Source of the DNA: Minisyncoccota bacterium
Lineage (GTDB): Bacteria > Patescibacteriota > Minisyncoccia > Phycocordibacterales > UBA12079
Direction of reading: 5' to 3'
Assembly: GCA_023129575.1 (NCBI GenBank)
Contig: JAGMBS010000010.1
Coordinates: forward strand, 1 to 36,599
DNA length: 36,599 nt
The notes beneath the pieces were generated by a model. That model worked only from the letters and a program-made list of their open reading frames with translations. It was not told the origin of the DNA and made no database searches. A program made the position numbers and the translations under genes. Below, one piece after another: positions 2,406-33,430 of the stretch. Position 1 is the first letter of the stretch, and every line of letters starts with the position of its first letter.

Positions 2406-5400
2406 ATGAAAGAAAAAAACAATCAACAAAAAAATCAAAAACTTGGAAGCTTAGCTTCCAAGTCGGAGACGGCAAAAAACGAAGAAGAGGTTTTGGAATT
2501 TTGGCGGCAGGCGAAAATTTTTCAAAAGTCCGTCCAAAAAGACGCGCCGCAGGGCGACTTTGTTTTTTACGACGGCCCGCCTTTCGCGACCGGTCTGCCT
2601 CATTACGGGCATATTTTGGCGGGGACAATTAAAGACGCCGTGCCAAGATACCAGACAATGCTTGGCAAAAAAGTGCGGCGAAAATGGGGTTGGGACTGCC
2701 ACGGCTTGCCGCTGGAAAACTTAGTGGAGGAGGAATTAAATCTAAAAACCAAAAAGGACATTGAGGACTACGGCATAGAAAAATTTAATGAAGCGGCGAA
2801 CAGCAGAGTTCTTTATTACGCCAATGATTGGGAAAAAATAATTCCGCGTATGGGACGCTGGGTGGATATGAAAAATCCATACCGCACGATGGATACGAAT
2901 TATACGGAATCGGTCTGGTGGTCGTTTAAGGAAATTTTTAAGAAAGGTTTAATTTACGAAGGGTTTAAGTCAATGCATTATTGTCCGCGCTGCGGAACGA
3001 CTCTTTCAAATTTTGAAGTTAATCAAGGATATAAAGATATTAAAGATTTGTCGGTGATTGCAAAATTTGAATTGGACCCTATCAGAACTAACGGTTTAAA
3101 GAAACCTACTTCTAACAGGGCAAGTGAGCCGGGCACTTTTGTCCTCGCTTGGACGACCACCCCGTGGACACTTCCTGGGAATACAGCATTAGCTATAAAC
3201 AAAGATATTGTTTATAGCAAATTCCAAATAACAAATTCCAAAACACAAACAAACCTGCCTGCCGGCGAGGCAGGTTCAAATGACCAAAATCCAAAATTCA
3301 CAACAGATGAATTTTACATTATTGCGAAAGAGAGATTGGCTGATGTTTTGAAAGATGATGAGTATAAAATAATTAAAGAATTCAAAGGTTCAGATTTAAT
3401 TGGCAAAAAATATAAACCGGTCTTTGATTATTACTTGGACGAAGAATTTGAAAACAAAGAAAATGCGTGGAAAATTTACGGCGCCGATTTTGTAAATATG
3501 GAAGAAGGGACGGGCATAATTCATATTGCCCCGGCATTTGGCGCGGACGATTTGGATTTGGCGCGCAAAGAAAATATTCCGGTTGTCCAGAATGTTAATT
3601 TGGAAGGAAAATTTAAGCCGGAAGTTCGAGATTTTGCCGGTTTGCCGGTTAAACCGAAAGGCAATCATCAATCCACGGATATTGAAATTATAAAATATCT
3701 GGCCGGCAAAAATTTATTATTCGCGAAAGAAAAAATAGAACATTCTTATCCGCATTGTTGGAGATGCGAGACACCCTTGTTAAATTACGCGACCTCGTCC
3801 TGGTTTTTGAAAACGATCGCCATCAAAGATGAAATCATCGCGGAAAATAAAAAAATAAAATGGGTGCCGTCCGATATCAGAGACGGCCGTTTTGGAAAAT
3901 GGCTGGAGGGAATGCGGGACTGGGCGATTTCGCGGTCGCGGTATTGGGGCGCGCCTTTGCCGGTTTGGAAATGCGCGGAATGCGGCGAGACAAAAATTAT
4001 CGGTTCCGTTGAGGAAATCAAAAAAGAAATAAAAGAGAATAGCAGCCAGAACAGATATTTCACAATTCGCCACGGCGAGGCGGAAAATAATATTTTACAG
4101 GTTTGTTCTAAGAATAAAAATGATGGTTATCATTTAACTGAAGGAGGTAAAGAGCAAATTAAAAAATCAGCTCAAGAATTAAAAAATAAAGGAATTGATT
4201 TAATTATTTCGTCTCCCTATATTCGCGCCAAGGAATCGGCTGAAATTTTGGCGAAAGAATTGGACACCCCAAAAATTGTTGAAGACGACCGGATACAAGA
4301 AATAAACAATGGCGCTCTTGGCGGCAAGTCCTGCTCGGAATACCGCGCGTTTTTTGAAAACGATGGAGAAAAATTTACAAAGACGCCGGATCAGGGCGAA
4401 AATTTTAATGAGATTAAAAAAAGAACAGGTGAATTTTTATCTGATATAGACAAAAAATATTCCCAGAAAAATATTTTAATAGTCGCCCATGAAAATATAT
4501 TATGGCTGTTGGAAGCGGCGGGGCAAGCGTTGAATGTTCAAGAAACGGTCAGATTGAAAAAACAAAAAGGTTTGCCCGCAAACGCGCAATGGCAAGAAAT
4601 TGATTTTACGCTGCTGCCTCATAATAGGAATTATGAATTGGATTTGCACAAACCTTATATTGATGAAATTGAATTTGATTGTGATTGTGGCGGAAAAATG
4701 AAAATAATTGGCGAAGTTTTTGATTGTTGGTATGAATCGGGTTCAATGCCTTTTGCTTCCAAACATTACCCTTTTGAAAATTTGGAGATTTTTAATCCTG
4801 AAAAAAACATTGGTTTTCCGGCGGATTTTATCGCCGAGGGCTTGGACCAGACGCGGGGCTGGTTTTATTCAACTTTGGTTTTGGCCGCCGCTCTTTTTGG
4901 CAAGACCCCTTATCAAACCGTGATTGTCAACGGAATGGTTTTGGCGGAAGACGGACAGAAAATGTCAAAATCAAAAAATAATTTTCCCGACCCGCTCGTT
5001 ATTGTTGATAAATATGGTTCGGACGCTTTAAGATATTATTTACTATCGTCTCCTTTGATGAAGGCGGAAGATTTAAGCTTTTCTGAAAAAGGCGTGGATG
5101 AAATTCTAAAGAAAATAATTTTGCGTTTCAAAAATGTTTATTCTTTTTATGAATTATATGAAGGGACGAAAACGGCCGCTGTGGATTTGCGTAAAAGTCC
5201 AAATGTTTTAGATAAATGGATTTTGGCGCGACTGGGAGAATTGACAGGCGCTGTCGAAAAGAATATGGATAATTATGAATTGGATAAAGCCACTCGCCCG
5301 ATTTCTGATTTCATAGACGATTTGTCCACTTGGTATTTGAGAAGGTCGCGAGACAGGTTCAAAGGCGGAGATGAAGAGGACAGGAATTTTGCGATTGCGA

Positions 5401-6140
5401 CTACAAAATATGTTTTGGAAAATTTGGCGAAAGTTTTTGCCCCCTTTATGCCTTTTGTGGCGGAAGAAATTTGGCAAAAAGTGACGGGAAATAATTTTGA
5501 GGATGAAAATAAATCTGCGCATTTGGAAAAATGGCCCTCCTTCGCTCCCTTCTCCGCTGAAGCTACGAAGGGCAAGAAAGTTACGGAGGGCAGGCCCACA
5601 TTTGGACGTGAGACGTCCAAGTCAATTTTGGAAGAAATGGAGGAGGTTAGAAAAATTGTTTCTTTAGGATTGGAAACTCGCGCGAAAGCGGGAGTGAAAG
5701 TTCGACAGCCCTTATTCAAACTAAAAGTGAACCCAGTTAAATTTAAAAGTTTAACGGGTCAAGAAAACGAAAAACTAAAAAGAAAAGAAGGATTATTGGA
5801 ATTGGTGAAAGATGAATTAAATGTAAAAGAAATTGTTTTTGATGCAAAAATTGAAAACGAAGTTGAATTGGATTTAGAAATTACTCCCGAATTGCAAGCG
5901 GAAGGGGACTTCCGAGAATTTTTGCGAAATGTCCAGAAATTCAGAAAAGAGGAAAAATTAACCCCGCAAGATATTATCAATTTGATAGTTGAAACGGACG
6001 AAAAAGGAAAAAATTTGATAGAAAAATTTGCATCCGAACTCAAAAAAACCGCCGGAATTAAAGACATCCAATTTACCTCCGCCCCCGCCGGCCGGGAAAT
6101 AAAAATTAACAACCTAATCTTCAAGATTAAAATTGTCTAA
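2406..6140 (+). CDS. ileS: Isoleucyl-tRNA synthetase with internal histidine-phosphatase domain and several palindrome-encoded inserts
   Basis: YDGPPFATGLPHYGHILAGTIKD, GWDCHGLPLE, KMSKSKNNFPDP; continuous 1244-aa ORF; RHGEAENN insert. Confidence 0.97.
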   Translation: MKEKNNQQKNQKLGSLASKSETAKNEEEVLEFWRQAKIFQKSVQKDAPQGDFVFYDGPPFATGLPHYGHILAGTIKDAVPRYQTMLGKKVRRKWGWDCHGLPLENLVEEELNLKTKKDIEDYGIEKFNEAANSRVLYYANDWEKIIPRMGRWVDMKNPYRTMDTNYTESVWWSFKEIFKKGLIYEGFKSMHYCPRCGTTLSNFEVNQGYKDIKDLSVIAKFELDPIRTNGLKKPTSNRASEPGTFVLAWTTTPWTLPGNTALAINKDIVYSKFQITNSKTQTNLPAGEAGSNDQNPKFTTDEFYIIAKERLADVLKDDEYKIIKEFKGSDLIGKKYKPVFDYYLDEEFENKENAWKIYGADFVNMEEGTGIIHIAPAFGADDLDLARKENIPVVQNVNLEGKFKPEVRDFAGLPVKPKGNHQSTDIEIIKYLAGKNLLFAKEKIEHSYPHCWRCETPLLNYATSSWFLKTIAIKDEIIAENKKIKWVPSDIRDGRFGKWLEGMRDWAISRSRYWGAPLPVWKCAECGETKIIGSVEEIKKEIKENSSQNRYFTIRHGEAENNILQVCSKNKNDGYHLTEGGKEQIKKSAQELKNKGIDLIISSPYIRAKESAEILAKELDTPKIVEDDRIQEINNGALGGKSCSEYRAFFENDGEKFTKTPDQGENFNEIKKRTGEFLSDIDKKYSQKNILIVAHENILWLLEAAGQALNVQETVRLKKQKGLPANAQWQEIDFTLLPHNRNYELDLHKPYIDEIEFDCDCGGKMKIIGEVFDCWYESGSMPFASKHYPFENLEIFNPEKNIGFPADFIAEGLDQTRGWFYSTLVLAAALFGKTPYQTVIVNGMVLAEDGQKMSKSKNNFPDPLVIVDKYGSDALRYYLLSSPLMKAEDLSFSEKGVDEILKKIILRFKNVYSFYELYEGTKTAAVDLRKSPNVLDKWILARLGELTGAVEKNMDNYELDKATRPISDFIDDLSTWYLRRSRDRFKGGDEEDRNFAIATTKYVLENLAKVFAPFMPFVAEEIWQKVTGNNFEDENKSAHLEKWPSFAPFSAEATKGKKVTEGRPTFGRETSKSILEEMEEVRKIVSLGLETRAKAGVKVRQPLFKLKVNPVKFKSLTGQENEKLKRKEGLLELVKDELNVKEIVFDAKIENEVELDLEITPELQAEGDFREFLRNVQKFRKEEKLTPQDIINLIVETDEKGKNLIEKFASELKKTAGIKDIQFTSAPAGREIKINNLIFKIKIV
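2441..2463. repeat. Palindrome inside ileS (ACTTGG/CCAAGT family)
   Basis: ACTTGGAAGCT-T-AGCTTCCAAGT, perfect 11-bp arms, within the codons for KLGSLASKS. Confidence 0.85.
3252..3276. repeat. Palindrome inside ileS (CCTGCCTGCCGGC family)
   Basis: AACCTGCCTGCCGGCGAGGCAGGTT encoding NLPAGEAGS. Confidence 0.85.
4045..4635 (+). other. In-frame histidine phosphatase (phosphoglycerate-mutase-like) domain inside IleRS
   Basis: RYFTIRHGEAENN (RHG 4068-4076), IISSPYIRAKESAEILA, IQEINNGALGG, ILIVAHENILWLL. Confidence 0.88.
5534..5622. repeat. Composite palindromic insert inside ileS
   Basis: GCCCTCC(5534)...GGAGGGC(5591) with inner CCTTCG/CGAAGG, followed by ATTTGGACGT-GAG-ACGTCCAAGT; encodes PSFAPFSAEATKGKKVTEGRPTFGRETSKS. 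Confidence 0.8.
5722..5774. repeat. 53-nt palindromic element copy A (in ileS)
   Basis: TAAAAGTGAACCCAGTTAAATTTAAAAGTTTAACGGGTCAAGAAAACGAAAAA; 52/53 identical to 22631-22683. Confidence 0.95.
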
Positions 6141-10172: not shown

Positions 10173-10214
10173 TTTTTAATTTATTTGCTTTTCGCCTCTT
10201 TGTATTTACGCAAT

Positions 10215-10242
10215 TGATTAACTCAACCCGTTGAGTTAATCA
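10215..10242. repeat. Palindrome, CTCAAC/GTTGAG family
   Basis: TGATTAACTCAAC-CC-GTTGAGTTAATCA, 13-bp arms. Confidence 0.85.
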
Positions 10243-10268
10243 GAGAAAAATAGAAAAATAACCGCAAA

Positions 10269-10303
10269 CTTAAAACTTGGACATAGTATGTCCAAGTTTT
10301 AAG
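10269..10303. repeat. Palindrome, ACTTGG/CCAAGT family
   Basis: CTTAAAACTTGGACATA-G-TATGTCCAAGTTTTAAG, perfect 17-bp arms. Confidence 0.88.
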
Positions 10304-10319
10304 AAAAGGGGCGGGGTTG

Positions 10320-10350
10320 AAAAATTGAGAGGCAAAACCTCTCAATTTTT
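10320..10350. repeat. Hairpin element, copy 1 flanking the AlbA gene
   Basis: AAAAATTGAGAGG-CAAAA-CCTCTCAATTTTT; same arms at 12180-12210. Confidence 0.85.
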
Positions 10351-12051: not shown

Positions 12052-12210
12052 GGGCGGAAAGCTTCGCTTTCCGCCCTTGCCGTATTGCCGTAGTCCAACT
12101 ACGGCAATTTTATAAATTCCCAATGGCTCAACCCATTGAGCCGTTGGGGAGGAGTGAAAAACAAGAAAAAACGGGATTGAAAAATTGAGAGGCAACACCT
12201 CTCAATTTTT
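12052..12210. repeat. Cluster of four different hairpins
   Basis: GGGCGGAAAGC-TTC-GCTTTCCGCCC; ATTGCCGTAGT-CCA-ACTACGGCAAT; CAATGGCTCAA-CCCA-TTGAGCCGTTG; AAAAATTGAGAGG-CAACA-CCTCTCAATTTTT. Confidence 0.9.
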
Positions 12211-17161: not shown

Positions 17162-17479
17162 ATGAACTGTTTAGTTTTAATTTTAGTTGGAATAGTAGGA
17201 ATTATTATTGGGGGTTATTTTGGTTCCAAAAAGAAAAAGTGTTTGATTTTTGGGCAAAGTAAAAAGAAGCAAGAAAACAAAGCAAAAATTTTGGAATTTT
17301 TGAGAGAGCATGGGAAAAACCTGCCTGCCGGCAGGCAGGTTACAAATAATAATGTTGAAAAATTGTGCGGGGTTTCGCACGCTACCGCGGAAAGGTATTT
17401 GAATGAATTGGAAAAAGACGGAAAACTAACTCAGCACGGCAAAATCGGACAAAATGTTTTTTACACATTGAAATTTTGA
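17162..17479 (+). CDS. N-terminal-TM, winged-helix protein with palindrome-encoded linker
   Basis: MNCLVLILVGIVGIIIGGYFG TM; ILEFLREHGKN-LPAGRQV-TNNNVEKLCGVSHATAERYLNELEKDGKLTQHG. Confidence 0.65.
   Translation: MNCLVLILVGIVGIIIGGYFGSKKKKCLIFGQSKKKQENKAKILEFLREHGKNLPAGRQVTNNNVEKLCGVSHATAERYLNELEKDGKLTQHGKIGQNVFYTLKF
17318..17341. repeat. Perfect 24-bp palindrome in the coding sequence
   Basis: AACCTGCCTGCC|GGCAGGCAGGTT encoding LPAGRQV. Confidence 0.92.
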
Positions 17480-17508
17480 TTAACTCAACCCGTTGAGTTA
17501 ATCAAAAT
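17473..17508. repeat. Palindrome overlapping a stop codon, CTCAAC/GTTGAG family
   Basis: ATTTTGATTAACTCAAC-CC-GTTGAGTTAATCAAAAT, 17-bp arms; the gene's TGA lies in the left arm. Confidence 0.88.
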
Positions 17509-17518
17509 ATAAAATTTC

Positions 17519-17547
17519 TTCACTTGGGGCTCCAAGCCCCAAGTGAA
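17519..17547. repeat. Palindrome, ACTTGG/CCAAGT family
   Basis: TTCACTTGGGGCT-CCA-AGCCCCAAGTGAA. Confidence 0.85.
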
Positions 17548-21507: not shown

Positions 21508-23001
21508 ATGGAAGCGTTGGATAAAAATTTTTATATTACGACCACTTTGGCGTATGTGAACGCCGATTTGCATATTGGACACGCCGCCGAATTTATTCGG
21601 GCCGATATTTTGGCGCGCCATAAAAAAGCGCTGGGTTTTGAGGTGTTTTTGAATACGGGCACGGATGAGCACGGACAAAAGATATTAAGCGCTGCGAGGG
21701 AGCGGGGGGTGGGAACGCAGGTCTTTGTTGATGAGATGTTTGAAAAAATTAAAGGCCAGATTGAAAAAATGAATGTGGATTATACGAATATTATTCGCAC
21801 CACGGATGAACGGCACCAAAAATCCGCCCAAGAATTTTGGAAAAGATGCGAGCAAAACGGAGATATTTACAAAAAAAATTATAAAATCAGATATTGCGTC
21901 GGCTGTGAATTGGAAAAAACGGATTCGGAATTAGTGAACGGAGAATGCCCGTTTCATCCCGGTAAAAAATTGGAGATCAGGGAAGAAGAAAATTATTTTT
22001 TCCGGTTTTCCAAATATCAACAGCCGCTTTTGGAGTTATACGAAAAAAATCCGGAATTTGTGAAGCCCGCTTTTCGCTTGAATGAAATGAAAAAATTCGT
22101 GGAGGGCGGATTGCAAGATTTCAGTATTTCCCGCTTGAAAGAAAAAATGCCCTGGGGCGTTCCGGTTCCGAATGACGACAGGCATATAATGTATGTTTGG
22201 TTTGACGCGCTGGTGAATTATATTTCCGCCATCGGTTGGCCGGACGAGCCGAAACAATTTGAAAAATGGTGGCCGGTTTTTCAAGTGGCGGGCAAGGATA
22301 ATCTGCGACAACAAGCGGCAATGTGGCAGGCGATGTTGATGTCAGCGGGATTATCTCCGTCAAGACAAATTCATATTTTCGGTTTCATAAATTCGGGCGG
22401 GCAAAAAATGAGCAAGAGTTTGGGAAATGTTATCAACCCGTCGGATATTATCGCCGAATACGGAACAGACGCTTTGCGGTATTTGGTTGCTCGGCATATA
22501 AATATGTATGAGGACAGCGACATTACGATGGAAAAGATTAAAGAGATTTATAACGCCAATCTGGCGAACGGTTTGGGAAATTTAGTCAGCCGAATTATGA
22601 AAATGGCGACAGATAATCTAAGTGAAAAAGTAAAAGTGGACCCAGTTAAATTTAAAAGTTTAACGGGTCAAGAAAACGAAAAAGAAATTTTGGAACATCC
22701 GGATTATTTAATTTATACAGACAAATTAAATAATTTTCACTTGAACGAAGTTATGGATTTTATCTGGCAGAAAATCAGTTCTATGGATGAAAAAATCAGC
22801 GAAACCGAACCTTATAAATTGGTAAAAAGCGCTGATAAAGACGAACAAGCAAAAGCTAAAGAAATAATCAGAGAATTAGTTAAAGAATTGCGACAAATCG
22901 CGGTTTATTTAATTCCTTTTATGCCCGCCACGGCTCAAAAAATTCAAAATTGCGTCCGAGAAAACAAAATCCCGTCCGCTCCGCTGTTTTTGAGAAAATA
23001 A
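21508..23001 (+). CDS. metG: Methionyl-tRNA synthetase
   Basis: TTLAYVNADLHIGHAAEFIRADILARHKK, TDEHGQKI, KMSKSLGNVINP. Confidence 0.96.
   Translation: MEALDKNFYITTTLAYVNADLHIGHAAEFIRADILARHKKALGFEVFLNTGTDEHGQKILSAARERGVGTQVFVDEMFEKIKGQIEKMNVDYTNIIRTTDERHQKSAQEFWKRCEQNGDIYKKNYKIRYCVGCELEKTDSELVNGECPFHPGKKLEIREEENYFFRFSKYQQPLLELYEKNPEFVKPAFRLNEMKKFVEGGLQDFSISRLKEKMPWGVPVPNDDRHIMYVWFDALVNYISAIGWPDEPKQFEKWWPVFQVAGKDNLRQQAAMWQAMLMSAGLSPSRQIHIFGFINSGGQKMSKSLGNVINPSDIIAEYGTDALRYLVARHINMYEDSDITMEKIKEIYNANLANGLGNLVSRIMKMATDNLSEKVKVDPVKFKSLTGQENEKEILEHPDYLIYTDKLNNFHLNEVMDFIWQKISSMDEKISETEPYKLVKSADKDEQAKAKEIIRELVKELRQIAVYLIPFMPATAQKIQNCVRENKIPSAPLFLRK
22631..22683. repeat. 53-nt palindromic element copy B (in metG)
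   Basis: TAAAAGTGGACCCAGTTAAATTTAAAAGTTTAACGGGTCAAGAAAACGAAAAA. Confidence 0.95.
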
Positions 23002-28130: not shown

Positions 28131-28156
28131 GAACGGCTCAACTTGTTGAGCCGTTC
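28131..28156. repeat. Palindrome, GGCTCAAC/GTTGAGCC family
   Basis: GAACGGCTCAAC-TT-GTTGAGCCGTTC. Confidence 0.85.
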
Positions 28157-33355: not shown

Positions 33356-33418
33356 TTTTGTTATTTAATTGCTCCTAAATAATAACATATTTTGCGGACA
33401 AAATCATAATGAATCCTG

Positions 33419-33430
33419 CCTGCCGGCAGG
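33419..33430. repeat. Partial CCTGCCTGCCGGCAGG palindrome, intergenic
   Basis: CCTGCCGGCAGG. Confidence 0.7.

Follow-up and report, generated by a model that had tools for sequence, protein, structure and literature searches.

In-frame palindromes of a patescibacterial ileS gene and the probable relation of two of them to a RAYT-like transposase

Palindromes in ileS and the systems they resemble

The palindromes that lie in frame in ileS, the isoleucine–tRNA ligase gene of the 36,599-nt stretch analysed here (the window), resemble several described systems. The Rickettsia palindromic elements RPE-1 to RPE-7 and the Wolbachia palindromic elements (WPE) are likewise in-frame palindromes of housekeeping proteins, including IleRS and PheRS-beta, and one site can bear different groups (PMC3767692); RPE-4 and RPE-6 have been termed CGTC repetitive extragenic palindromes (REPs) (PMC3733652). 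Intragenic REPs of Proteobacteria and Opitutus also occur in DNA repair, ligase and tRNA synthetase genes, and the recB genes of two Xanthomonas have, at roughly one position, REPs that differ (PMC3733652). In systems with a REP-associated tyrosine transposase (RAYT), hairpins of 20–40 nt flank a cognate single-copy Y1/HUH gene, and inverted doublets, several families per genome and compensatory stem changes are found, as they are here (PMC2817692; PMC6006769; PMC8266576). TnpA-Y1 subclass 2.6, mostly from Bacteroidetes, shares with the present case atypical hairpins without GT[AG]G and copies elsewhere in the genome (PMC6006769); Parcubacteria are unmentioned in that paper, nor did we find an internal hairpin among its descriptions.

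The window is contig C2 of a genome of 653,873 bp in 48 contigs (labelled G000), whose closest named relatives by IleRS are Candidatus Paceibacterota/Patescibacteria. Its ileS gene carries six in-frame palindromes, two of which, of the form ACTTGG...CCAAGT, belong to a family of short hairpins that a RAYT-like (TnpA-REP, Y1/HUH) transposase probably spreads. In the following list, z scores compare single-strand DNA folding with dinucleotide shuffles.

2406–6140, + strand: ileS, isoleucine–tRNA ligase, 1244 amino acids (TIGR00392, 852.6 bits; PF00133, 436.8 bits)
2441–2463, + strand: RAYT-type hairpin ACTTGGAAGCTTAGCTTCCAAGT, frame 0, LGSLASK, in the N-terminal extension (z=-6.0)
3078–3119, + strand: imperfect palindrome encoding PIRTNGLKKPTSNR (from the alignment)
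3252–3276, + strand: palindrome of the CCTGCCTGCCGGC family, NLPAGEAGS (z=-3.0)
5534–5591, + strand: composite weak palindrome encoding PSFAPFSAEATKGKKVTEG (z=-1.1; alignment)
5600–5622, + strand: RAYT-type hairpin ATTTGGACGTGAGACGTCCAAGT, FGRETSK (z=-6.0)
5730–5760, + strand: 31-nt palindrome AACCCAGTTAAATTTAAAAGTTTAACGGGTC, in-frame insertion NPVKFKSLTGQ, within the element 5722–5774 (z=-2.5 for the latter)

Five of these palindromes had been reported in the original prediction, and all five are present and read in frame; that at 3078–3119 had been overlooked. Folding alone is not significant for the palindrome at 5534–5591, which is single copy in the 304 kb examined of this genome, whereas it is significant for the other four of the five. 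In an alignment with the IleRS of about 15 relatives, NPVKFKSLTGQ (a clean insertion of 33 nt), PFSAEATKGKKVTEGRPTFG and the TNLPAGEAGS region are missing from all or nearly all relatives, distant ones included, which rules out an ancestral feature of IleRS. The KLGSLASKS copy lies within a variable N-terminal extension, and insertion there is therefore unprovable. When residues 935–1244 were modelled with AlphaFold, the inserts at 1045–1074 and 1109–1119 fell in loops that connect helices and strands and have low model confidence.

The ACTTGG-N11-CCAAGT family and its transposase gene

The 23-nt form ACTTGG-N11-CCAAGT occurs in ileS at 2441 and, with one mismatch, at 5600. Two further members lie between genes of the window, where relatives of the ileS hairpins had been predicted:

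10275–10297, - strand: intergenic member ACTTGGACATACTATGTCCAAGT, within 10269–10303
17522–17544, + strand: member with another core, ACTTGGGGCTCCAAGCCCCAAGT, within 17519–17547, adjoining the 3' end of the open reading frame (ORF) 17162–17479

Genome-wide there are about 34 copies, bounded exactly by ACTTGG and CCAAGT. The pattern CTTGGA..TCCAAG gave 35 matches, nearly all of 21 nt, and none in the control; for the hairpin at 2441–2463, exact copies of a 19-mer number seven, again with none in the control. The flanking bases are A before and T after in 30/30 core copies, and the flanks beyond are unstructured. In 144 genomes of the class, ACTTGG-N11-CCAAGT was found 388 times against 5 in the control. 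The 11 inner bases were left free in this form, yet 93% of inner-stem cells are paired, compared with at most 38% for a slid partner, and compensatory changes are seen in all four inner pairs. Six inverted doublets are spaced at 28–64 bp. Classification as a CGTC-tagged REP was ruled out, as CGTC is present in 16/30 copies because one core contains ACGTC, and there is no shared head.

One explanation for such palindromes is chance or base composition, which an AT-rich genome and the insignificant fold at 5534–5591 would suit. For the repeated families this is already refuted: in 202 kb sampled, perfect palindromes (stem of at least 9, loop of at most 8) number 129 against 21–37 in order-2 Markov sequences, about a fivefold excess over this composition-matched null, and the control counts given above for the pattern and for the class point the same way. 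We therefore give it practically no weight.

A Y1_Tnp search of the genome returned one full-length gene, C23:785–1486, plus one more distant. Copies of ACTTGGACGTGAGACGTCCAAGT, the type found at ileS 5600–5622, surround the full-length gene at 681 and 745 upstream and at 1524 downstream, and two more lie inside it at 971 and 1250, in frame as LGRETSK; the ileS hairpin matches these flanking and internal hairpins at 22/23 nt. The product scores 27.1 bits against PF01797, above the cut-off of 23. A sequence search against the PDB gave weak matches only (E about 0.5 or worse), and it was the fold search that decided: for the AlphaFold model (pLDDT 86.5, both LGRETSK peptides in low-confidence loops) the best match is 4er8, the structure of a RAYT in complex with a REP hairpin, followed by IS608/ISDra2 (2a6m, 2xm3). 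The fold is thus also that of the IS200/IS605 enzymes, but there is no multi-copy insertion sequence unit here, and hairpins outnumber the full-length transposase by about 34 to 1.

The arrangement is conserved among 25 homologous RAYT genes of the same GTDB family. The HUH motif (H85-x-H87) and Y145 are invariant; NF047646, the NCBIfam model of REP transposases, is the sole match for 22 of the 25. An upstream hairpin is present at 22 of these genes (0.18 expected) and an internal hairpin, at +140 to +205, in 19 (0.08 expected), with hairpin identity at 97.9% within one locus and 48.2% between loci. The same layout of hairpin and gene recurs in other families of the class.

Copies within genes and turnover at orthologous slots

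Within ORFs, and in frame, lie 27 of the 34 ACTTGG copies, a number not significantly below that predicted by the coding fraction of 0.89 (P=0.07). The hosts are about 19 ORFs, with nearly all identities confirmed by Pfam: IleRS, Dus, Fpg, transketolase, an exonuclease-III-like protein, ArgRS, DNA ligase (LigA), CTP synthase (PyrG), GAPDH, MnmA, ComEC, a DNA polymerase III subunit, PAP2, a glycosyltransferase, TGT, PheRS-beta, MiaA, an S74 protein and the transposase itself. The suggestion that the palindromes are tolerated in surface loops of aminoacyl-tRNA synthetases thus agrees with the modelled IleRS inserts, but hosts of such varied function rule out specificity for synthetases. Frame 0 (LGRETSK, LGSLASK) is used 13 times and frame 2 (LDVSRPS, LEAKLPS) 12 times; frame 1 (TWxxxVQ) is used twice against 6.5 expected (P=0.015, from sites that are few and not all independent). 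The frame closed by the hairpin's own stop is used by 0/27 coding copies.

Comparison of host-gene slots with four relatives gave two kinds of result. In LigA the 23-mer of 2441–2463 is a clean insertion of 21 nt (seven codons), and the hairpin is lacking in the LigA of G002–G004 and in orthologues of GAPDH and TGT. The slots of MiaA, Dus, the exonuclease, ArgRS, Fpg and MnmA are also occupied in relatives, by a hairpin of equal or nearly equal length whose core differs; the MiaA core reads AAGCTAAGCTT here, ACACCCGGTGT in G002, CGCTCCGAGCT in G004 and CGCTCAAAGCG in G003. The core in the slot is that of the genome's own RAYT hairpin in LigA and Fpg of G006 and in pyrG of G003, and nearly so in the exonuclease of G002. 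The two RAYTs located downstream of pyrG, one in G003 and one in G004, share 73% identity, yet their cores are unrelated. We note that RAYT genes adjoin pyrG in three genomes (G000:C23, G003:C15, G004:C3), upstream in one and downstream in two, and that pyrG of G000 and pyrG of G003 each bear a hairpin close to the 3' end, at almost corresponding positions.

In-frame insertion is clean for NPVKFKSLTGQ and in ligA; the original prediction misses the change of core between genera at orthologous sites. Either re-targeted insertion with a compensating loss or hairpin-for-hairpin replacement would explain the slot pattern; independent drift does not readily explain one core common to many slots of one genome.

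The best reading of these data is that the hairpins are those of a REP/RAYT-like system tolerated in coding DNA, and we infer that they are mobile. From its fold and the anatomy of the locus, the transposase would bind, as single-stranded DNA, the hairpin that its own gene bears upstream, inside and downstream. It may then cut hairpin copies and join them into new single-stranded sites, for example at replication, thereby making new copies; cutting and joining of the hairpin as single-stranded DNA has been reported for TnpA-REP (PMC8266576). The net gain would be 21 nt between a preserved A and T, as the clean case illustrates, and seven codons keep the reading frame. Copies would persist in genes that read the hairpin in a stop-free frame and place the peptide in a loop, as shown by the frame counts and, for loops, by the two modelled proteins; selection acting on frame and peptide would remove unfit copies. 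With a change of hairpin core in a lineage, its older slots come to hold the new one, a pattern seen in the comparison above; in-place replacement or re-targeting would be the cause.

Several results weigh against this proposal. The C23 transposase fails the NF047646 cut-off (25 against 80 bits), GTAG is found within 8 nt of the hairpin in 0/30 copies, and no cognate RAYT for the 2441–2463 core was found in this genome. Several slot cores, too, lack a matching RAYT among those found in the genome concerned. The hairpins on the two sides of the gene are inverted at 7/16 loci and in the same orientation at 9/16, which argues against inverted flanking as a rule. MiaA and TGT have hairpin-free homologues of the same length; the hairpin thus overlies native codons there, and plain insertion is not the whole story. 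Lastly, no near-identical strain pair with and without a hairpin was found that would show recent movement.

The system differs from REP/RAYT systems in the missing GTAG head and in an enzyme below the NCBIfam cut-off. REPs are mostly intergenic, whereas most copies here lie in ORFs, and the present system has a conserved hairpin within the transposase gene and tens of copies, not more than 100. As the GTAG head and the intergenic bias are both absent, we file it as REP/RAYT-like and not as classical REP. Intragenic REPs are likewise a minority of copies where they have been described and the majority here.

A more far-reaching possibility, which we put forward tentatively and with some doubt, is that the transposase directs a frame-preserving rewriting of genes. 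Slots in essential genes would be inherited over genus-level time and overwritten, hairpin for hairpin, when RAYT specificity changes, so that the same protein sites would come to bear lineage-specific, transposon-written peptides of seven residues, and the hairpin within the transposase gene may be part of the specificity switch.

Conservation of slots across genus-level divergence, together with the strong compensatory covariation, could also indicate hairpins selected as host RNA or DNA structures, acting in mRNA stability, translation pausing or as nucleoid or recombination sites, with a secondary transposase association. The host genes are functionally unrelated, however, with slots and frames that differ by gene; the hairpins are missing from many orthologues (the LigA, GAPDH and TGT cases above), and their core is identical to the transposase-borne hairpin. 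We regard this explanation as very unlikely.

Other palindrome families and the meaning of the finding

The four other ileS palindromes belong to separate families that are not transposase-linked, and no RAYT link was found for the CCTGCCTGCCGGC, 31-nt or PIRTNGL elements. Related copies in the window are:

17318–17341, + strand: CCTGCCTGCCGGC-family copy, in frame in ORF 17162–17479, NLPAGRQV
22639–22669, + strand: 31-nt palindrome in metG (ORF 21508–23001), DPVKFKSLTGQ (direct repeat D8, 96% over 57 nt; pattern search)
33415–33427, + strand: CCTGCCTGCCGGC-family copy, intergenic, as had been predicted

The CCTGCCTGCCGGC family has 13 forward matches in the genome against none in the reversed control and is present in 86/191 class genomes, with 4 control matches. 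Here it is enriched between genes, with 7/15 copies in ORFs (P=6e-5), and in recG (21 nt) and lepA (42 nt) it is cleanly inserted in frame. Three genomes with many copies (G163, G136, G040) have no Y1 gene, and the family is therefore not tied to Y1 transposases. Its depletion in ORFs and its abundance in Y1-less genomes rule out a single family for all five palindromes first reported.

The element at 5722–5774 recurs in frame in metG, which had been overlooked. The metG palindrome is missing from the MetRS of three relatives, and the third and last copy lies in a spacer of C22. All three copies (5718–5774, 22627–22683, L019:10252–10310) have A-rich flanks like native ileS, and the pattern looks as if the metG and C22 copies derived from ileS. 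The 3078–3119 palindrome is common to one relative only (G003, JAGLSI010000001). The IleRS loop preceding TFVLAWTTTPWT is an insertion-prone site with inserts that vary by lineage: the PIRTNGL palindrome here and in G003, a palindromic stretch in L055 and a TND repeat in L026. IleRS also contains a histidine-phosphatase domain (PF00300, 100 bits; residues 554–714, window 4065–4547), kept in nearly all aligned Paceibacteria and missing in one Kaiserbacteria sequence (L061). PheRS beta (L100:1395–3815, G000:C47), with an NlpC/P60 domain at residues 352–472, is a second synthetase of the genome with an enzyme domain inside.

Three further repeats were observed. The dispersed hairpin AACGGCTCAAC-n-GTTGAGCCGTT (169–192, 28132–28155, L110:2286, L101:4325, L102:7688, L020:6717) is intergenic in 6/8 copies. 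The 30-nt palindrome TTGATTAACTCAACGGGTTGAGTTAATCAA occurs four times, between genes or where a gene ends (10214–10243, 17476–17505, L020:148, L020:7750). The 31-nt hairpin AAAAATTGAGAGGC..CCTCTCAATTTTT (10312–10350, 12172–12210, L020:6652, L020:7643) repeats near hairpin clusters common to the window and contig C48.

The original prediction was of elements like the Rickettsia RPEs, with several families in one housekeeping gene. In-frame, unrelated families are indeed present, but two of the elements belong to a genome-wide family linked to a Y1/RAYT-like transposase. In its full form this explanation has selfish palindromes that lack an enzyme of their own, disperse in some unspecified way and are simply tolerated in proteins. 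The phenotype is the same in IleRS, PheRS-beta and DNA polymerase or repair genes, with different groups at one site (PMC3767692), and the elements with no RAYT link, as well as the Y1-less genomes rich in CCTGCCTGCCGGC, would fit it. For the ACTTGG family, however, there is a cognate transposase gene with the identical hairpin around and inside it, and the unit is 21 nt against lengths of 84–192 nt in the R. japonica table. The host phylum is Candidatus Paceibacterota/Patescibacteria and not that of Rickettsiales. We consider this explanation unlikely for the two ileS hairpins.

RPEs in rickettsial IleRS and PheRS-beta, intragenic REPs and the differing REPs of the two recB genes are direct precedents, so the kind of phenomenon is already known. 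No papers on RAYTs or REPs in Patescibacteria were found, in a literature that included few subscription journals. Apparently new are a dedicated transposase for gene-borne palindromes, the conserved hairpin within the transposase gene, the seven-codon unit and, in Patescibacteria, inherited slots that are recoded lineage by lineage.

The route by which RPEs and similar in-frame palindromes reach new proteins has yet to be established, and REPs usually lie outside genes. One small genome supplies both halves, a mostly intragenic hairpin family and a transposase gene bearing the same hairpin, and a single enzyme and a single 23-mer would therefore suffice for a direct test of the mechanism. The matched pairs of enzyme and hairpin (about 25 genes in 11 genomes) offer material for decoding how this fold reads its hairpin. 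On the reading preferred here, hairpins derived from a transposon would add or rewrite short peptides in enzymes central to an organism with a streamlined genome.

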